Of a stretch of DNA of 20,526 nucleotides, positions 5,717-19,586 are shown piece by piece. The position numbers and the translations under genes were made by a program. Location of the stretch: positions 1-20,526 of IMG/VR virus record IMGVR_UViG_3300050027_000104; one strand, written 5' to 3'. The DNA is from a virus. A model generated the notes under the pieces. The model worked only from the letters and a program-made list of their open reading frames with translations. It did no database searches and had not been told where the DNA came from. Position 1 is the first letter of the stretch; each line of letters begins with the position of its first letter.

Positions 5717-5943
5717 ATCTCGTCTGGTGTCGCGTCTGTCGCGTCCAGCCCGCGATGTTCAACGAAGACCGTTGCGAGAATTGCTGGGCCGACGACCAGG
5801 ATCACTGCGACCGGCGACGGCCGGCCAACATCCACACAACGGTCAACTGTTCGCGGGAGGTGAACGATGTCCCAGTGCCGGCAAAACCCGTTCGTCCCCG
5901 ACGAGTTGAAGGCGGGGGACATCATCGGATTCAGCGGCGATAG
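5713..5943 (+). CDS. Small zinc-ribbon protein
   Basis: A 76-aa ORF starting inside the stop of the preceding gene (ATGA overlap, 5713-5716), a sign of translational coupling. The N-terminus carries two CxxC pairs (WCRVC, then RCENCW), enough to bind one zinc ion. The second half is basic and low in structure, and its last 77 nt overlap the next gene, whose own ribosome binding site lies inside this frame. Only the first 40 or so residues look constrained. The function is unknown. Confidence 0.5.
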   Translation: MNLVWCRVCRVQPAMFNEDRCENCWADDQDHCDRRRPANIHTTVNCSREVNDVPVPAKPVRPRRVEGGGHHRIQRR

Positions 5944-6469
5944 CTGGATCAGCGCGCTAGTGAACCTGGCGACCTATGGCATCCCGTTTTGGAGCTTGAG
6001 CCACGTCGGCGTTCTTGGGCACGCGGACGACGGACGACTGCTGCTCTTCGAGTCCACGCAACTTGACGGCCTGCCCTGCGAAATCACCGGCGAAGTGTTT
6101 CTGGGAACCCAGGCCCACAAGTTGGAACACGTCGTTGAGGTCTACAAAGGAAAGGTCTGGCGATACCCGCTCTACCGCCCGCTCTATCCGACCGAAGACG
6201 AACGACTCACCGAGTTTCTCATGGGGACGATCCACATGCCCTACGACAAGCTGGGGGCGATCCGTGCGGCGGGTGTTGGCCTTTCCTTTGTCGAGTCGTT
6301 GCTGCACCCCGACAACCTCAACTCCATCTTCTGTTCCGAGCTAACGGCTGCCGCTTACGCCGACGTTGGCCTCTGGGCGACCGCGAACGTGGCACGCTGG
6401 AGCCCCAATCTCTTGGCTCGGTGCCTGCGCTCTGGCGGGGTTTTACGCAGGCCGAGGAGACTGAAGTAG
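5867..6469 (+). CDS. Permuted papain-like hydrolase (YiiX/NlpC-P60 type)
   Basis: A 200-aa protein with the motif order of circularly permuted NlpC/P60-like enzymes. LKAGDIIGFSG (14-24) is the beta-barrel opening, LSHVGVL (44-50) carries the catalytic His46, and LFES (60-63) carries a likely acidic partner, Glu62. FCSELTAAAY (155-164) carries the nucleophile Cys156. Members of this superfamily cut amide bonds in peptidoglycan or act on lipids and other amides. In a phage, peptidoglycan cleavage during lysis or entry is the first guess. No signal peptide is seen, so export would need a holin-like partner. The start has a strong AGGTGA 5 nt upstream. The stop overlaps the next GTG by 1 nt. Confidence 0.75.
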   Translation: MSQCRQNPFVPDELKAGDIIGFSGDSWISALVNLATYGIPFWSLSHVGVLGHADDGRLLLFESTQLDGLPCEITGEVFLGTQAHKLEHVVEVYKGKVWRYPLYRPLYPTEDERLTEFLMGTIHMPYDKLGAIRAAGVGLSFVESLLHPDNLNSIFCSELTAAAYADVGLWATANVARWSPNLLARCLRSGGVLRRPRRLK

Positions 6470-6960
6470 TGAAGACAATCCCGCTGACGCAAGGCAAAGA
6501 GGCGCTGGTGGACGACTGCGACCATGAGCATCTAATGCAATGGAAGTGGCAGTACACTCAGCGGGTGGGAACGGGTTACGCGGAACATCAGCAAGCGGTT
6601 GACGGGCAGCCACGAACAATTCGTATGCACAGCCTTGTTGCAAAGCGGTGCGGACTCACTCGCAGCAAGAGCGTGGAGGTCGATCATCAAAACGGTGATG
6701 GCCTGGATAACCGCCGGGCTAATCTACGTCTTGCGACACGGGCGCAGAATCTAGCCAACAAGGGGCGTCTTCGGAATAACACGTCGGGCTTCAAGGGCGT
6801 CTATCCGCATTCACAGGTGGACAAATGGTGTGCCCAACTTGGGGTCGGCGGCCGGCGTCTTTACTTGGGCATATTCAGTGACCCGCGTGACGCCGCAAGG
6901 GCCTACAACGAAGCCGCGCTGAAGCACTACGGGGAGTTTGCATGTCTCAATCCGCTCTAA
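6469..6960 (+). CDS. HNH homing endonuclease with AP2 DNA-binding domain
   Basis: A 163-aa free-standing homing endonuclease starting at a GTG that overlaps the upstream stop (TAGTG). An HNH nuclease core is seen in RMHSLVA (52-58), VDHQNGDGLDNRRANLR (71-87, with Asp72, His73 and Asn81) and the following ATRAQNLAN. A C-terminal AP2 domain runs from SGFKGVY (106-112) through YLGIFSDPRDAARAYNEAA and would bind the target DNA. This HNH-AP2 pairing is a standard phage mobile gene. Base composition is visibly less GC-rich than the neighbours, consistent with recent arrival. The last 19 nt overlap the next gene. Confidence 0.92.
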   Translation: MKTIPLTQGKEALVDDCDHEHLMQWKWQYTQRVGTGYAEHQQAVDGQPRTIRMHSLVAKRCGLTRSKSVEVDHQNGDGLDNRRANLRLATRAQNLANKGRLRNNTSGFKGVYPHSQVDKWCAQLGVGGRRLYLGIFSDPRDAARAYNEAALKHYGEFACLNPL

Positions 6961-7514
6961 CACGAACCCTCCTCGCTTTGATGCTGCTTGCGTCCACCGC
7001 CGGATGCAGAGTCAGCGGAGATTTTGGAATCTCAGCGGCCAAGAAGGAACGGCCGACAGTCAACGTCCCGGAAGTGCTGCGGCAACGCAACTGGATCGGC
7101 GACCAGGGCATGGGGTCCTGCGTTCACGCCACCATGATTTCGCTGCTCCGCTGGCAATACCGGCTCAAGACGGCCGATCACTGGCGACAGACCTACGGCG
7201 ACGGCGAGCAGCCGGAAGACCTGGCCGCGAAGTTCGATCAGGAAGGAATCCGCTACGCCTACGTCACCAACGGCGACGTTCGCTTCTTGGAATGGGCCTG
7301 CCGCACGAGGCGAGGCTGCGGCATCACGATCATGGGCGGAGCCCACATGGTCGCACTTGTGCATCTCGACGACAAGTGGGCCGCGATCCTCGACAACAAC
7401 AAGGTCGAGAACTTCATCTGGGTTCCGCGAGAGACGCTGATTGCCGAATGGAAGGCGAGCTATGGATGGGCGGTCACACCGATTTACGCCCCTGCGGCTC
7501 CGCTTCCGCAATAG
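6942..7514 (+). CDS. Lipoprotein with C39/papain-like cysteine peptidase domain
   Basis: A 190-aa protein. The N-terminus is a lipoprotein signal (a hydrophobic LLALMLLASTAGC with the lipidated Cys at residue 22). The mature part has the layout of a C39-like peptidase: GDQGMGSC (53-60) gives oxyanion Gln55 and nucleophile Cys60, GGAHMVALVH (132-141) gives His135, and ILDNN (149-153) gives the third residue, Asp151 or Asn152. It is therefore probably an active, membrane-anchored cysteine peptidase outside the cytoplasm. GGGGAG 5 nt upstream supports the start, which lies inside the end of the homing endonuclease gene. A lipoprotein peptidase in a phage late operon is unusual. Roles in lysis or in blocking superinfection are possible. 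Confidence 0.72.
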   Translation: MSQSALTRTLLALMLLASTAGCRVSGDFGISAAKKERPTVNVPEVLRQRNWIGDQGMGSCVHATMISLLRWQYRLKTADHWRQTYGDGEQPEDLAAKFDQEGIRYAYVTNGDVRFLEWACRTRRGCGITIMGGAHMVALVHLDDKWAAILDNNKVENFIWVPRETLIAEWKASYGWAVTPIYAPAAPLPQ

Positions 7515-7550
7515 TCCCTGAAACACGTTTTGCAACGAAAGAGGAAAGCC

Positions 7551-8243
7551 ATGAACAGACTGCTCCTGAGTATGCTTTGCCTGCTCGCGGTGCTCGCGGC
7601 CGTCGCGCCCTGCCTCGCCGATACCGTCAACGGTGTCCTGGCCGAGGAGCGGGTCGTGAACCTGCCGCAGGACCAGGGCAAGTGGTACGTGAGCGTAGTC
7701 GGTAGCGCGACCGACTCCCGCTACAACGAGATCGTGGGCTGGTTCGACTTCAACACCAGCCTGAAGAAGCTGAAGGACCAGGTTCACTTTTGTCCGGTCA
7801 CGAGCGACACGGCCATTTACGAGGCCCGCTATGCCTGCAACGTGAAGGGCCTGCCCACCGTGCGGATGCAAAAGGCGGACGGCACCGTAGTCTACGAAGC
7901 GGCCGGGAAGAACCTGCCTATGACGGCGGCCGGCTTGAACGGAGCCTTGGCGGGTGCGGTCAGTACGGCCTCGGGAATTCGGCCGATCCTGCCCTGGCGA
8001 CGGGACATGGAGCGCCGCTGCCCCGGCCCATGCCCGAATCCGCAACCCAACCCGCAGCCGCAGCCGGACCCCACGCCGCAGCCGATTGACGATGGCGGCA
8101 CGCCGATCGTCGATCCCGACGCGCAGGCGGAGCCGCCGCTTTGGGCGTTGGCTCTGCTGTGCATTGCCGGCGTGCTCGGCGGCATTGGTTGCGGCTACGG
8201 CAAGAAGCTGTACGCAAAGTTGAATCCGCCCGTGAAGTCCTAG
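7551..8243 (+). CDS. Exported, membrane-anchored thioredoxin-fold protein without CxxC
   Basis: A 230-aa protein. ATG 7551 with GAGGAAA upstream is chosen over an in-frame TTG at 7530. A signal peptide (residues 1-24 or so, MNRLLLSMLCLLAVLAAV) leads to a domain ending in VKGLPTVRMQKADGTVV, which looks like the cis-Pro loop and last strands of a thioredoxin fold. I find no CxxC redox pair at the expected place, so it is probably not an oxidoreductase. A Pro/Gln/Asn linker (PNPQPNPQPQPDPTPQP) then leads to one membrane helix (PLWALALLCIAGVLGGIGC) and a short basic tail. The domain would face outward on a flexible stalk. Confidence 0.65.
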   Translation: MNRLLLSMLCLLAVLAAVAPCLADTVNGVLAEERVVNLPQDQGKWYVSVVGSATDSRYNEIVGWFDFNTSLKKLKDQVHFCPVTSDTAIYEARYACNVKGLPTVRMQKADGTVVYEAAGKNLPMTAAGLNGALAGAVSTASGIRPILPWRRDMERRCPGPCPNPQPNPQPQPDPTPQPIDDGGTPIVDPDAQAEPPLWALALLCIAGVLGGIGCGYGKKLYAKLNPPVKS

Positions 8244-8269
8244 CGTTGTTGCCCTTTCCCTGAACATCC

Positions 8270-8287
8270 GGCTGTCGAAGGACAGCC
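8270..8287 (+). other. Intergenic hairpin
   Basis: GGCTGTC (8270-8276) and GACAGCC (8281-8287) form a perfect 7-bp stem with the tetraloop GAAG. It sits between two membrane-protein genes, about 25 nt before the start at 8313. There is no T-run, so an mRNA stability or processing element is more likely than a terminator. Confidence 0.5.
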
Positions 8288-8312
8288 ACCAAAGAAACCC
8301 GGAGAAGAAAAG

Positions 8313-8795
8313 ATGAACCCCACCGTCGTGATCTGGATTCTGGCCGCTGTGGTCGCCGTGCTGGTCGGTCGTGAAATCGGCAAGCGCCTCTTCGACGTGA
8401 ACGCCAAGCTGATGGCGAAGAAACGCGCCGCCCAAGTGCTGGCCGCCAAGCTGCGGGACAATGGCCTGAAGCTGTTGCCCTCCCTGTTGGAAGACTTCGC
8501 CGTGGGCGACGTGGAGGACATGGTGGAGAAAATTCACGATGTCGCCAAGCTGGTCGAGTCCGGCAGTGACGCCATCGAGAAGGAATTGGAGCAGACCTAC
8601 GAGAACGTGCTGGACCGGAAGCTCGCCACGCCCGAGGGTTTGGCCCTGATTAAGGCCAAGATCGCCGAGATCGAGGGTGCCCCGGCCGCTGCATCGGCTC
8701 CCGCGCCGGCATCGGCTGCTGCGCCGACTACGGCCGCTGCGCCGGCTGCCGCCCCGGCTGTGGCCCTGACTCCCGCCGCCCCCGCCAAGTCGTAG
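8313..8795 (+). CDS. Single-pass membrane protein with Ala/Pro-rich tail
   Basis: A 160-aa protein with an N-terminal membrane helix (VVIWILAAVVAVLVG, about residues 5-19), a long charged helical region (20-122) likely to form coiled coil, and a low-complexity tail of Ala/Pro repeats (123-160) encoded by GC-rich degenerate repeats (about 8680-8790). GGAGAAGAAAAG precedes the ATG. The topology resembles some phage spanin-like or holin-associated proteins, but no family is recognised. Its place among exported proteins suggests an envelope role. Confidence 0.6.
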   Translation: MNPTVVIWILAAVVAVLVGREIGKRLFDVNAKLMAKKRAAQVLAAKLRDNGLKLLPSLLEDFAVGDVEDMVEKIHDVAKLVESGSDAIEKELEQTYENVLDRKLATPEGLALIKAKIAEIEGAPAAASAPAPASAAAPTTAAAPAAAPAVALTPAAPAKS

Positions 8796-8803
8796 GCCAA
8801 CAC

Positions 8804-8938
8804 ACCGGCCGCACCGCTCCCCTCGCGGGTGACGTGCATCAAGGGCCGGTAGGAAACGGGTCGGTCCTGCGGTCCCACGCAGGACCGATTCTCCGGCGGC
8901 TCCCGCAGTGCCGGCGCGAACCGCCCGAGAATCGGAGG
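8804..8938 (+). promoter_or_regulatory. Structured leader with alternative hairpins over the thioredoxin-gene ribosome binding site
   Basis: Three stems fill the 146-nt gap. ACCGGCC (8804-8810) pairs with GGCCGGT (8844-8850). Stem A has 11 pairs (8861-8871 with 8878-8888) and a 6-nt loop. Stem B has 14 pairs and one C-C mismatch (8885-8899 with 8921-8935). Stems A and B share 8885-8888, so they compete at that point. The 3' arm of B covers the first two bases of the GGAGG ribosome binding site (8934-8938). This geometry fits a translational switch or attenuator, although no ligand or regulator is evident. Confidence 0.5.
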
Positions 8939-8941
8939 CCC

Positions 8942-9298
8942 ATGATGAAAGCCAAGTTGTTTCTGCTGACCGTGGTGCTGTTGGCGCTCGTCGCCGGCTG
9001 CGAACAGTCGCAAGCCCCGGTGCCGCCCGGCCATCCGTGCGAGCGGCCGATGATGCTCGTCTTCACGGCGGCCTGGTGCGGCCCGTGCCAGGCGCAGAAA
9101 CCGCTGGTGGCCCAGATCGCGTCGGCCGGCGTCGATGTGCGGGTCTATGACATCGACGAGAGCCCCGAAATGGCAAGGAAGTACGACATCACGGCCACGC
9201 CGACCTACATCTTCTGCCTTTGTGGACGCGAGCCGCTTCGGACCCATGATGCCAACGAAATCCTGACGATCATCCACAACGGCTGGGGTTGCAAGTGA
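8942..9298 (+). CDS. Thioredoxin-like lipoprotein
   Basis: A 118-aa protein (ATG 8942; the adjacent ATG 8945 has better spacing to GGAGG). A lipoprotein signal ends in LALVAGC, with the lipidated Cys at residue 20. The mature domain has the classical thioredoxin active site AAWCGPC and the cis-Pro loop ITATPTY, so it should be redox-active in the periplasm or on the outer face of the membrane. It could maintain disulfides in the exported cassette proteins or in tail or host-envelope proteins. Thioredoxins are known in phages, but lipid-anchored ones in a late operon are unusual. The start of this gene is framed by the structured leader at 8804-8938. Confidence 0.82.
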   Translation: MMKAKLFLLTVVLLALVAGCEQSQAPVPPGHPCERPMMLVFTAAWCGPCQAQKPLVAQIASAGVDVRVYDIDESPEMARKYDITATPTYIFCLCGREPLRTHDANEILTIIHNGWGCK

Positions 9299-9493: not shown

Positions 9494-11167
9494 ATGAAGT
9501 TTGTGGACGAGTTGCGACAAGCCTTGGGAAAGGGATTAGAGAGCAGGAACCTGCGGTCGTGCAGCCGGTGGTCCGAACACCGGCGGGTGATGGGGGCACC
9601 CTTCAACGGTCCTTACCGCTTTAGCCGGCACCCCTGGTGCCGCGCGATCCACGACAGCAAGGCCGCCTGGACGATTGCCATGAAGGCCGCCCAGTTGGGC
9701 GTCACCGAGACGGGGATCAATCGGGCCTTCTTCACGCTTGACCAATTGAAGCGGGATGTGCTCTACGTGCTGCCCACGGCGGTGAACGCGGGCGACTTTT
9801 CCAAAGCCCGCTTCGCCACCGCGTTGAAGCTCAGCCCCTACCTGAAAGACCTGTTTGTTGACACGAATACCGTGGGGCTGAAATCGACCGGCACCAACGT
9901 CCTCTACATCCGTGGGAGTCGCGGCGACAGCAACTTGAAGTCCATCCCGGTGTCCGAGTTGGTCTTGGACGAGATGGACGAGATGGACACGCATTCGGTG
10001 TGGCTGGCGCTGGAGCGGTTGTCGGGGCAGATCGAGAAGCACATCCTGGCGATCTCGACGCCGACCGTGCCCAAGTACGGCATCCACAAGCTGTACCTGA
10101 CCAGCACTCAGGAACACTTTTGTTTTCAGTGTCCGCATTGCGGTCGTTGGACGGAGTTGGTCTGGCCGGATTGCGTGGAGATCATTGGCGAATCGGTCAA
10201 CGACCCGCGCTGCAAGGAATCGTTCCTCAAGTGCCGCGAGTGCAAGCACAAGCTGGAGCAGGAGGCCAAGCCGGAGTTCCTGGCCGGCGGCCGGTGGCAG
10301 GTGACGGAGCCGAACGTCTCGGCCGAGGAGTCGCGGGGCTTTTACATCAATCAGCTTTACTCGTCCACCGTGACGCCCTGCGAACTGGTGATCGCCTACC
10401 ATCGCGGATTGGGGGATGAAGCGGCGAACACGGAGTTCCATTGCAGCAAACTGGGCGTGCCGTTCATCGGCGAGGGTGCCCAGGTCACGGACGAGATGAT
10501 CGAGAACTGCATCAAGTCGCACTCGATCAACGACGCCCGGCCGCAGATCGGCGGCGACCGGCTGATAACGATGGGCGTGGACCAGGGGAAGACCGGCTAC
10601 ATTTCGGTCGTGGACTGGCTGTTCGACAGGCACCCCGGCACCGACATCAATGCGGCGGCCATCGGAAAGCTGTTGTGGTTCGGCAAGTTCTCCGGCGAGG
10701 AGTGGGGGTATCTCGACGAATTGATGCGGGAGTGGCAGGTCTTGGCCTGCGTGGTGGACGCCGACCCGTTCACCAACGATGCCCGCCGCTTCGCCAAGAA
10801 GTTCCACGGCTATGTGTGGCTGACGCGATACCGGCGGGGCCAGACCGCCAAGGAAATCTCGCTGAGCGAGGAAGAGACGGGAGCCCCGTTCGCCACGGTA
10901 GATAGGACGAACTGGCTCTCGTGTACTCTCGGTCGCTTCAAGAGCAATCCGCCACGCATCCTGCTGCCGCGCGACATTTCGATGACCTACCGCGAGCACG
11001 TAAAAAACCTAGTTCGCACGTACAAGAAGGACGACCGGGGCAATCTGGCGGCCGAGTACGTCAACACGGGTGCCGACCACTTTGCTCACTCGCTGTGCTA
11101 CGCCGACATCGGCCTGTCGCTGGCACCGATTTCGTCCGGCGGCGAGAACATCGGAAAAGTGACGTGA
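9494..11167 (+). CDS. Terminase large subunit, GpA (lambda-like) family
   Basis: A 557-aa DNA-packaging motor and nuclease. The ATPase half has a deviant Walker A, KAAQLGVTE (64-72), with the lysine at the front as in lambda gpA. It also has Walker B ELVLDE (155-160) and the coupling motif LAISTPT (185-191). A zinc finger is inserted (CPHC at 213-216, CREC at 247-250), typical of the GpA family. The RNase H-like nuclease half shows MGVDQGK (Asp363) and VVDADPF (Asp422), then GADHFAHSLCYADIGL near the C-terminus. It would act at the portal vertex. The length fits, if a little short for the family. No strong ribosome binding site is seen, so translation may be coupled to the ORF before it. Confidence 0.93.
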   Translation: MKFVDELRQALGKGLESRNLRSCSRWSEHRRVMGAPFNGPYRFSRHPWCRAIHDSKAAWTIAMKAAQLGVTETGINRAFFTLDQLKRDVLYVLPTAVNAGDFSKARFATALKLSPYLKDLFVDTNTVGLKSTGTNVLYIRGSRGDSNLKSIPVSELVLDEMDEMDTHSVWLALERLSGQIEKHILAISTPTVPKYGIHKLYLTSTQEHFCFQCPHCGRWTELVWPDCVEIIGESVNDPRCKESFLKCRECKHKLEQEAKPEFLAGGRWQVTEPNVSAEESRGFYINQLYSSTVTPCELVIAYHRGLGDEAANTEFHCSKLGVPFIGEGAQVTDEMIENCIKSHSINDARPQIGGDRLITMGVDQGKTGYISVVDWLFDRHPGTDINAAAIGKLLWFGKFSGEEWGYLDELMREWQVLACVVDADPFTNDARRFAKKFHGYVWLTRYRRGQTAKEISLSEEETGAPFATVDRTNWLSCTLGRFKSNPPRILLPRDISMTYREHVKNLVRTYKKDDRGNLAAEYVNTGADHFAHSLCYADIGLSLAPISSGGENIGKVT

Positions 11168-13892: not shown

Positions 13893-14453
13893 ATGGCGCT
13901 CAATTTCGATTACTACGGCAAGCAAGAGGGCGACACGCCGGCCGAGCGGATCGCCGAGGCGACGAACTACTTTTCTTACCGGCTCCACGAAGTTGCCTGG
14001 AGCGCCGCTTCCGACTCAGACCGCGAAAAGGCGTTGATTGCCGCCCGAGGAATCATCGACGCGCTGAATTACAAAGGGGTCAAAGCGAGCGTTTATACGG
14101 TCTGCGGCTCGTCGGACCCGGACTCGTCCGGCGTGGACCTGACAGTTATTCAGGCCGCCGAGGCAAGCCAGCCCTTGGAGTTTCCGCGCGGCACGGACAC
14201 GGAGGTGCCCGAGGCCATCCGCATCGCTGAATACGAGATCGCCTACGCCCTCTTGGACGGCAAAGACCCGGAGATCGAACTGGAGAACCTGGCCATCAGT
14301 GCGATGGGCTACGGCACGGTCAAGACGACTTACGAGCGGGCGCAACTGCCCATCGAGCACATTATAAACCTCTGCCCCTCGTCAACGGCTTGGCGAATTC
14401 TGCGACCTTTTCTCAGGGACAGTGATGCCCTCCATTTGAGCCGCATGTCGTAA
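13893..14453 (+). CDS. Head-tail connector protein (DnaT-like/gp6-like)
   Basis: A 186-aa protein. ATG 13893 with GGGAG about 9 nt upstream is preferred over earlier in-frame codons. The pattern is that of adaptor proteins often annotated as DnaT-like: an N-terminal helix, ALIAARGIIDALNYKGVKA, then LEFPRG, AIRIAEYEIAYALLDG, DPEIELE and VKTTYERA. It ends in AWRILRPFLRD followed by LSRMS. Such proteins bind under the portal and start the neck. Its stop overlaps the start of a homing endonuclease by one base (TAATG). It lies upstream of the scaffold and coat genes, whereas connectors usually follow the coat gene. Confidence 0.75.
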   Translation: MALNFDYYGKQEGDTPAERIAEATNYFSYRLHEVAWSAASDSDREKALIAARGIIDALNYKGVKASVYTVCGSSDPDSSGVDLTVIQAAEASQPLEFPRGTDTEVPEAIRIAEYEIAYALLDGKDPEIELENLAISAMGYGTVKTTYERAQLPIEHIINLCPSSTAWRILRPFLRDSDALHLSRMS

Positions 14454-15088
14454 TGCACCACTTGTATCTCATTACCAATCTCGTCAACTGGAAGACGTAT
14501 GTTGGTATTACGACGAATCCACGGTTGCGTTGGACGAAACACAAGTACGGGCACGGCTCGCGTCTCGTGAGATTGGCGATTGCGAAGTACGGCATCGAAA
14601 ACTTTCGCTTTGCCGTGATTTTCAAGAGTCCTGATCGTGCTTGTGTTGAGTGGATGGAGCGACACGCAATTTCGGAGTGGAAGACAGAATCGCCACTCGG
14701 CTACAACCGCAATCCCGGTGGCGGTGGACCGCCTGTTGGACTTAAGCACTCTGCCGAGACTGTGGCGCGTCGCGCAGCCGCCAATCGGGGCAAGAAGCGA
14801 GAGCCAGGCTTCGGGCAACGCATGAGTGCTGTCAACAAAGGCCGGAAAAGAACGCCGGAGGTCCGACAACGCTGGTCTGAGTCGCGTCGTGGGCATTCAG
14901 CCTATCCACGACAACAAGAGACCGCGAGCCGTCTTCATAGCCGACCGGTCTCGGTTGAAGGCATTGCTTACCCCTCATTGAAGATGGCGTCGGCGCGGAC
15001 GGGCCTATCCTACTCGTCGCTAAAGAAGAGGTTTCGACGCTATGCAGAGTCCAACTCGTTTCCTACGGGTTGGGCGTACTTGTCTTAG
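14453..15088 (+). CDS. GIY-YIG homing endonuclease (first copy)
   Basis: A 211-aa free-standing GIY-YIG endonuclease. The nuclease domain shows LYLI (4-7), TYVGIT (15-20), Arg26, His30, metal-binding Glu69 and GYN (83-85). The middle has basic NUMOD3-like repeats (GLKHSAETVARR, KGRKRTPEVRQR). The C-terminus is a NUMOD1-like helix-turn-helix (AYPSLKMASARTGLSYSSLK). It would nick or cut intron-less alleles to spread itself. The start sits on the stop of the connector gene (TAATG). Lower GC and AT-rich codons (for example TATGTTGGTATTACGACG) differ from the neighbours, fitting horizontal arrival. Confidence 0.92.
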   Translation: MHHLYLITNLVNWKTYVGITTNPRLRWTKHKYGHGSRLVRLAIAKYGIENFRFAVIFKSPDRACVEWMERHAISEWKTESPLGYNRNPGGGGPPVGLKHSAETVARRAAANRGKKREPGFGQRMSAVNKGRKRTPEVRQRWSESRRGHSAYPRQQETASRLHSRPVSVEGIAYPSLKMASARTGLSYSSLKKRFRRYAESNSFPTGWAYLS

Positions 15089-17658: not shown

Positions 17659-17979
17659 ATGGATTTTCTACTTTTGGCACAAGCGGGTGACACGTTTGCC
17701 GATGGCGTGGCCCTCCTCTCGCTACTCAAGCAGTACGGCCCGCTGGTCCTGGTCATGGCCTTTCTGCTTTGGCAAGGCTGGGTCCGCGAGGGCCGCATGA
17801 GCAAGCGGATCGTCAGGCTGGAAGACGAGCAGCGGAATGTTTTGATGCCACTGGTCGAGCGTTCCGCTGACGTGATCGCCCAGAACACCTTGATGATGGA
17901 GCGGTTGGAGAAGGCCCTGGACGCGCGGTTCGATTGCCCGTGGCGACCAACCTGCGCCGAACAGCGGAAACGAGGCTGA
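17659..17979 (+). CDS. Small single-pass membrane protein with coiled-coil tail
   Basis: A 106-aa protein with an N-terminal stretch MDFLLLAQAGDTFAD, one membrane helix (YGPLVLVMAFLLWQG, about residues 29-43), and then a charged helix (SKRIVRLEDEQRNVLMPLVE, then a LMMERLEKALDARF segment) that should form a coiled coil. This outline occurs in small phage proteins sometimes suspected to be holins. Its place between coat and neck genes is also common for short membrane proteins of unknown role. Two cysteines near the end (DCPWRPTC) could pair. GGAG lies about 8 nt before the ATG. Confidence 0.62.
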   Translation: MDFLLLAQAGDTFADGVALLSLLKQYGPLVLVMAFLLWQGWVREGRMSKRIVRLEDEQRNVLMPLVERSADVIAQNTLMMERLEKALDARFDCPWRPTCAEQRKRG

Positions 17980-18505: not shown

Positions 18506-18997
18506 ATGTCCGCCAATCCCAATTGGGCGCGCTGGGTGTTCGCCTCGGTGGCCACCTACTTGAAGGAAGTCGCCCTGGAGGCGGAACTACCGGCCATCGT
18601 CGAAGGTCTGGACGACCGGACCACCGAGTTCATGGAGGCCCCGGATCGCTGCGAAATCCGCATCACCGGCCCGTTCACCAGGGAGGCCAGCCACAACTAC
18701 TTCTACGTCGAAGTCGTGGTGAACGTGTTGTTCGTCAGCCACTACGAAGAGTCGAAGAACCAGTACGCCATCATCCAGAAGATGGGCGTATTCCAGGAGG
18801 CAATGGACGGACCCATCGCCGTCCGTCAGTACGGAAACCAACCCGGCGACGACGAACAGGTGCTCGTGGGTTGCCTCAAGCCGGTCCAAGGACGCAACGA
18901 CACGATCCGCGTCCTGCACTTCGGACAGGTCGATCCGACCCACCGCCTGAAGCAGAGCATGGTGGATGCCCGTTACCGGATGGAGGTTAGCGAGTAG
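18506..18997 (+). CDS. Probable tail terminator or tail-completion protein
   Basis: A 163-aa protein with GGGAGG about 9 nt upstream. It opens with WARWVFASVATYLKEVA and has alternating strands and helices (EIRITGPFTRE, YFYVEVVVNVLFVSH). It ends in a strand plus helix (DTIRVLHFGQVDP, RLKQSMVDARYRMEV). Size and position just before the major tail protein fit the tail terminator of siphoviruses, which ends tail polymerisation and joins the neck. The stop (18995-18997) is followed after one base by the ATG of a homing endonuclease that has inserted between this gene and the tail gene. Confidence 0.55.
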   Translation: MSANPNWARWVFASVATYLKEVALEAELPAIVEGLDDRTTEFMEAPDRCEIRITGPFTREASHNYFYVEVVVNVLFVSHYEESKNQYAIIQKMGVFQEAMDGPIAVRQYGNQPGDDEQVLVGCLKPVQGRNDTIRVLHFGQVDPTHRLKQSMVDARYRMEVSE

Positions 18998-18998
18998 C

Positions 18999-19586
18999 AT
19001 GTTCCTCTACGTGATAACCAACCGTGTCAACGAGAAGCAATACGTTGGTATTACAGACGATGTTGCTCGCCGAAGGCGATTCCACCTCTCTGGACACGGA
19101 TCGAAGCTGGTGTACCAGGCGGCCAAGAAGTACGGCAAAGATAACCTTCAATTGGAAGTCTGGTACGAAGGCGACGAGGACTGGATCAAGATGATGGAGT
19201 ACCGGGCCATTGTGATGCTCGAAACGCGAGCACCGCATGGCTACAACCTGACGCTCGGTGGGGATGGAACATGGGGTTTACGGCCAACTGCCGAGACACG
19301 CAAGAAGTTGAGCATGGCGCATACGGGTCAGGTGCCTTGGATGTCCGGGCGGCATCATTCTCCCGAGGCACGGCAGAAGATGAAGGAGGCATGGAGCCGC
19401 AAATCCAAGACAGGTGCCAGAAATCCGCGCGCCTGTTCTGTCGTGGTTGAAGGCACCGAATACGGGTGTATCAAGGATGCGGCTCTTGCTACCGGCATCA
19501 ACGTGAACACCCTCTACAACCAACTACGGCGTTATCAAAGGTCCGGCCTCTGGCCGGTTGGTTGGGGTTTCAAGACCCCAGTTTGA
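18999..19586 (+). CDS. GIY-YIG homing endonuclease (second copy)
   Basis: A 195-aa GIY-YIG endonuclease. ATG 18999 is used rather than 18966, which would overlap the upstream gene. GGAGG lies 12 nt upstream, still inside that gene. Motifs are FLYVI (2-6), QYVGIT (14-19), Arg24 and His29 in the next helix, Glu67 and GYN (81-83). A NUMOD3-like basic region (PTAETRKKLSMAHTG, SPEARQKMKEAWSRK) and a C-terminal NUMOD1-like HTH (CIKDAALATGINVNTLYNQL) follow. It shares architecture and scattered DNA identity with the copy at 14453 but is clearly diverged, so the two probably have different targets. Lower GC than its neighbours suggests horizontal spread. Confidence 0.92.
   Translation: MFLYVITNRVNEKQYVGITDDVARRRRFHLSGHGSKLVYQAAKKYGKDNLQLEVWYEGDEDWIKMMEYRAIVMLETRAPHGYNLTLGGDGTWGLRPTAETRKKLSMAHTGQVPWMSGRHHSPEARQKMKEAWSRKSKTGARNPRACSVVVEGTEYGCIKDAALATGINVNTLYNQLRRYQRSGLWPVGWGFKTPV

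Follow-up and report, generated by a model that had tools for sequence, protein, structure and literature searches.

A candidate lysis module, centered on a C39-like papain-fold lipoprotein, in phages of Planctomycetota

The DNA stretch analyzed here (IMG/VR record IMGVR_UViG_3300050027_000104, positions 1 to 20,526; hereafter the window) is a 20.5-kb fragment of an uncultivated tailed phage, in which terminase, portal and major capsid genes were recognized with Pfam and PHROG. At 5867–9298 it carries five genes, all on the plus strand, which we call YiiX, C39, Trx0, TM (for transmembrane) and Trx, together with an HNH endonuclease open reading frame (ORF) between the first two. Our survey of relatives supports the view that these genes make up a co-travelling, envelope-directed set that was previously undescribed, and we consider it fairly probable that they are a lysis, that is an envelope-breaching, module of planctomycete phages with the C39 protein as an exported lysin. 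A reading made from the sequence alone had named the five proteins and suggested lysis, superinfection exclusion or redox control of exported peptidases as their function. ORF, family and fold checks confirm that all five proteins exist on one strand and are of the kinds it named, but its description of the cassette overlooked the HNH gene at 6421–6960.

Conservation and spread of the module

The five genes occur together in relatives. Where loci were collected via the terminase large subunit (TerL) alone, and counting for each gene those loci whose DNA reaches far enough, YiiX is present in 19 of 19, C39 in 23 of 23, Trx0 in 27 of 27, TM in 32 of 33 and Trx in 36 of 36, the sole gap being in a locus whose TerL is a 56% relative and which has 1.7 kb of DNA upstream. 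Among the loci found via YiiX, C39, Trx0 and TM (the core trio) follow in order in 69 of the 71 distinct cases, and among the listed loci found via C39, the order with Trx0 and TM is kept as well; some of the contigs are closely related, and these synteny counts are not independent. One exception among the YiiX loci (L230), where the C39 gene is broken into the thioredoxin region, was set aside as probably a deletion or an assembly fault. The neighborhood survey that the sequence-only reading had proposed thus gives the same picture with TerL, C39 or YiiX as the anchor. As for what it had named as contrary evidence, namely genes found apart or motifs left unconserved, we found instead synteny and invariant catalytic and CxxC residues. 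The ratio of nonsynonymous to synonymous substitution rates (dN/dS) is mostly 0.08–0.27 across module comparisons, with one Trx pair at 0.45. These values indicate purifying selection on the module genes, which together with the strict synteny points to more than chance.

The core trio is not tied to one type of phage. It is found on the backbone of the window, in prophage G005 and in the pair G401/G012, and BLAST finds no meaningful similarity among the TerL proteins of these three, whereas those of G401 and G012 are related (30%, 3e-69). At least two further backbones with unrelated terminases therefore carry the trio, its gene order unchanged. In the window the module lies between a TerS-like gene and a gpA-type TerL (9494–11167, plus strand; Pfam GpA_ATPase, 5.9e-30), our search anchor outside the module, and not among the tail genes. 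G005 and G409 share the order 90-residue coil-plus-TM gene, C39, Trx0, TM, TerL. In G401 and G012 the trio closes the late genes, following a giant virion-type protein (about 1230–1570 residues, with an LPD38 domain in G012), so that the earlier placement of the module just before the terminase holds for the window and some backbones but not for these two, where TerL is far away. A still more divergent C39–Trx0 pair is present in G377. All four matches to named genomes are to metagenome-assembled genomes of Planctomycetota (4 of 4), and the C39 protein was found in at least 5 of 392 sampled Planctomycetota genomes, with a maximum of eight candidates scored per genome. A restriction of named-genome matches to Planctomycetota would be expected of an envelope-specific function.

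Two features of the surrounding loci were noted in passing. In two related prophages the genes next to the trio differ (L034, 8166–9041, minus strand; L154, 2525–3442, plus strand), one of them being a homologue of a TIR-TM defence protein (PADLOC, 3e-47), and a variable defence slot possibly adjoins the module there. A 103-kb record, IMGVR_UViG_3300050333_000165 (L010 and L022), carries the whole module twice, in divergent copies, along with two terminases, and represents either tandem prophages or a chimeric assembly.

The two hydrolases and the HNH insertion

The putative catalytic Cys and His of both hydrolases are invariant among relatives. In YiiX (5867–6469, plus strand), for which no signal peptide is evident, H46 and C156 are invariant in an alignment of 46 relatives and E62 is kept in at least 90%. 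Its profile matches PDB 3kw0, a permuted papain-like peptidase (E = 2e-4), and alignment to 3kw0 places its residues in the permuted His, Glu, Cys order that characterizes peptidase family C92. The Pfam family itself (Peptidase_C92, PF05708) matches 5 of the 46 members, at best with 4.6e-6, the window copy being among those left unmatched.

The C39 protein (6942–7514, plus strand) carries the lipobox TAGC. Most other copies also have a lipobox, the most divergent ones having a signal or anchor without it. All 55 aligned copies, very divergent ones included, have residues C60, H135 and N153. N50 is likewise present in all 55 and Q48 in 44, with a spacing to C60 greater than in papain; because Q48 varies while N50 is invariant, the identity of the oxyanion residue is uncertain. 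No Pfam family, PF13529 included, matches any of 52 members, the L034 copy scoring 0.24 in the Pfam C39 test, below the cut-off, and a profile search against PDB sequences gave nothing significant (3erv at 0.2). The AlphaFold2 model (predicted local distance difference test score, pLDDT, 89.8), in contrast, matches in Foldseek the C39 peptidase domain 6mpz (4e-5) and the C39-like 3erv (6.8e-4) in PDB, and also PeiR. In a fold search of BFVD its best named match is the endolysin of Gordonia phage OneUp (1.2e-4), with the lysozymes of cyanophages S-RIM14 and S-CBP1, and further down the S-N03 endolysin and a mycobacteriophage Lysin A. On the predicted structure, we class the protein as C39-like by fold and not as a family member by profile.

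The HNH/AP2 homing-type endonuclease ORF between the two (6421–6960, plus strand; Pfam HNH_3, 1.4e-8; PHROG HNH endonuclease, 8.5e-37), whose start codon is possibly downstream of 6421, occurs in the window and in some relatives (e.g. L002, L011, L018, L025 and L070). Most relatives lack it, and in them the two genes as a rule share 4 nt, the C39 start codon lying over the YiiX stop (53 of 68 distinct pairs; the spacing exceeds 300 bp in 12 of the 68). The HNH gene is therefore an intruder in a translationally coupled YiiX–C39 pair and not a working part of the module.

Trx0, TM and Trx

Trx0, which starts at an ATG within a longer TTG ORF (7551–8243, plus strand), combines a signal peptide, a thioredoxin fold, a Pro-rich linker and a C-terminal transmembrane segment. 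Its AlphaFold2 model matches thioredoxins in Foldseek, but the fold contains no CxxC; most relatives have two hydrophobic segments, and about half of the proteins have a cysteine pair in the linker region. The TM protein (8313–8795, plus strand) is a single-pass membrane protein with one N-terminal hydrophobic segment and a helical domain. In all tested relatives with a detected segment there are no Lys or Arg residues before it and 4–8 in the 20 residues after it, for which reason the positive-inside rule predicts an N-out/C-in topology, with the helical domain in the cytoplasm. Trx (8942–9298, plus strand; Pfam Thioredoxin, 1.4e-11) starts at an internal ATG at 8942 of a longer GTG ORF that begins at 8834, and has the motif WCGPC. 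Its CxxC and a later Pro are invariant in 35 of 35 proteins, and most copies have a lipobox. Of the module proteins Trx evolves fastest (dN/dS up to 0.45), and it was found in 58 of 70 sampled cassettes, none being detected in the other 12; it is an accessory to the module.

Evidence for and against a role in lysis

Of the three functions proposed at the outset, lysis is best supported, because the genes occupy a late-gene position, no other recognized lysin is present, and the C39 model is closest to phage lysins. Phages need an exit from the cell, and in four complete or near-complete genomes (the 35-kb prophage G005, prophage G401, the 50-kb G012 and the 82-kb G001, with complete lists of 18, 9, 14 and 18 Pfam families, respectively) no Pfam family at 1e-5 pointed to another peptidoglycan hydrolase. 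The only lysin candidates there are YiiX and C39, and in G005 and G401 C39 alone. Amidase_2 was absent from the 16 phage records searched. A locus lacking the trio (L237) retains YiiX and Trx and has an unrelated set in its place (6608–9023), made up of a small coil protein, a Pro-rich protein that is exported, and a protein of 338 residues. The last of these has no signal peptide and no Pfam or PDB match; its Cys/His/Asn-like motifs, conserved in a 58% relative (L255), would make it 'papain-like' by motif alone. L255 has relatives of two genes of the set; there the 58% relative is flanked on one side by an exported Pro-rich protein and on the other by a small hydrophobic one, with an integrase-like gene adjoining. 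As support for lysis, the replacement of the trio is suggestive only.

Several points weigh on the other side. The absence of other lysins is that seen with Pfam at 1e-5 on simple ORF calls, from which an unfamiliar lysin could escape, and the genomes scanned were all carriers of the module. The fold matches of C39 are moderate, with a TM-score of about 0.5, and lytic activity is a prediction from fold and motif. A lipid anchor is unusual for an endolysin. Further, no classical holin or spanin is recognizable in the module: Pfam and PHROG recognize no component as a known holin, lysozyme or spanin, TM, the single-pass membrane protein that might be a holin, included; the predicted N-out/C-in orientation of TM does not fit an i-spanin; and a clear lipobox is missing from Trx0.

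If the module does serve lysis, a possible course of events can be outlined. The C39 enzyme would be exported by Sec and usually lipid-anchored, a secreted rather than a holin-released lysin, with peptidoglycan as its likely substrate. Trx0 would hold a redox-dead thioredoxin-fold domain above the inner membrane, on its Pro-rich stalk and C-terminal membrane segment, and its most likely role would be to bind, position or restrain C39. The cytoplasmic helices of TM could be the trigger, in a holin- or antiholin-like way. YiiX may act as a second, cytoplasmic cell-wall hydrolase, released once the membrane fails, and Trx as an accessory that keeps periplasmic cysteines usable. Only tentatively do we propose the whole of this scheme, a lysis dedicated to Planctomycetota in which a pre-exported, lipid-anchored papain-like lysin is controlled by a membrane-stalked dead thioredoxin-fold partner and an N-out trigger, not by membrane release, a principle undescribed for phage lysis.

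Alternative explanations

Lysis could also be under redox control, with Trx and Trx0 activating the exported cysteine peptidases by disulfide reduction or isomerization, by analogy to what is seen in principle in P1 Lyz. The invariant CxxC of Trx and the linker cysteine pair in about half of the Trx0 proteins would fit this, as would the description of C39 enzymes as requiring reducing conditions (PMC6189367). However, C60 and H135 are still invariant when the 12 of 70 cassettes with no detected Trx are considered, the number of cysteines in C39 is alike with and without Trx (3.21 vs 3.17), and Trx0 cysteine counts likewise show no notable difference with the presence of Trx. Since the Trx0 fold is also without CxxC and Trx evolves fastest of the module, we regard this explanation as unlikely, and the earlier suggestion of redox control is not supported as the core function in view of the cassettes with no detected Trx.

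A slightly less likely alternative is that the exported proteins change the cell surface of infected hosts or lysogens and block attachment or injection by further phages. The module proteins are exported and anchored, and genes beside the trio vary in prophages G005 and G409, one of them being a TIR-TM defence homologue. Superinfection-exclusion genes are usually sporadic, though, whereas the module is nearly invariant in all related phages, with a late-gene position and a fixed order; PADLOC gave no match for any module protein, and exclusion would leave the genomes without a recognized lysin. Exclusion or envelope modification accounts for the data less well than lysis.

We think it improbable that the hydrolases are instead packaged in the virion and breach the envelope at infection and not at exit. 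On one backbone the module does come directly after the giant LPD38-type virion protein, but proteins with signal peptides, lipoboxes and membrane anchors would go to the envelope of the host as they are made, and the window module lies between the TerS-like gene and TerL, not among the tail genes. Finally, that the genes are a loose assortment of accessory genes with no relation to one another (morons), as the HNH insertion in the window and some relatives might suggest, is very improbable given the gene order, the 4-nt translational overlap and the co-transfer among backbones, and was rejected on the synteny counts.

Other features of the window

Two different serine-recombinase genes with a resolvase N-terminal domain, each encoding about 250 residues, lie in tandem at 297–1046 and 1685–2461. 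Two ORFs among the head genes (14453–15088 and 18966–19586) were judged by eye to be GIY-YIG endonuclease-like; counting the HNH gene, the phage may have three homing-type endonucleases within 20 kb. After the capsid gene, at about 17659–17979, is a gene for a 106-residue protein with one transmembrane segment and a charged coiled tail, conserved in relatives and without a match in a Pfam search; it is a possible holin outside the module.

Novelty and comparison with known systems

The sequence-only reading had stated that no phage module with this set was described, and literature and phage-record searches agree: tblastn with two C39 proteins as queries found no relative of the C39 protein in 50,697 phage records, and nothing on the module, or on phage lysis of Planctomycetota, was found in the open-access literature. 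If the lysis interpretation is true, the module offers a testable mechanism for the lysis of Planctomycetota hosts as well as a new class of cell-wall enzymes, together with a marker by which Planctomycetota phages could be recognized in metagenomes, and a case of a thioredoxin-fold partner controlling an exported cysteine enzyme.

With the lambda-type lysis cassette (holin, endolysin, spanins) the module shares a compact set of co-directional late genes that combines a hydrolase with membrane proteins and is often near the terminase, but none of its components matches the known holins, lysozymes and spanins in the libraries used. Phages are known to export lysins that then wait in the envelope (PMC6116005), and secreted (signal-peptide) and signal–arrest–release (SAR) endolysins, such as Lys44 of fOg44 and Lyz of P1, resemble the proposed C39 lysin in being exported by Sec and remaining there until a trigger acts. 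Here, the fold is C39-like and papain-like, a thioredoxin-fold partner and an N-out membrane protein are present, and most C39 proteins have a lipobox, while the uncleaved, weakly hydrophobic N-terminal anchor that defines a SAR domain was not found in them. C39-like domains are known from the N5 domain of mycobacteriophage LysA (PMC3314691), and PeiR, a wall peptidase of a methanogen virus, is a C39-type lysin (PMC6189367). The C39 model matches the papain fold of these and of the cyanophage lysozymes, but the module protein has no detected sequence similarity to them and no cell-wall-binding domain, and is a separate exported lipoprotein. Phage YiiX resembles peptidase family C92 (YaeF/YiiX and BcPPNE, 3kw0) in the permuted His–Glu–Cys arrangement and in sequence, and differs from it in lying mostly below Pfam detection, in being phage-encoded and in being coupled to a C39 gene.

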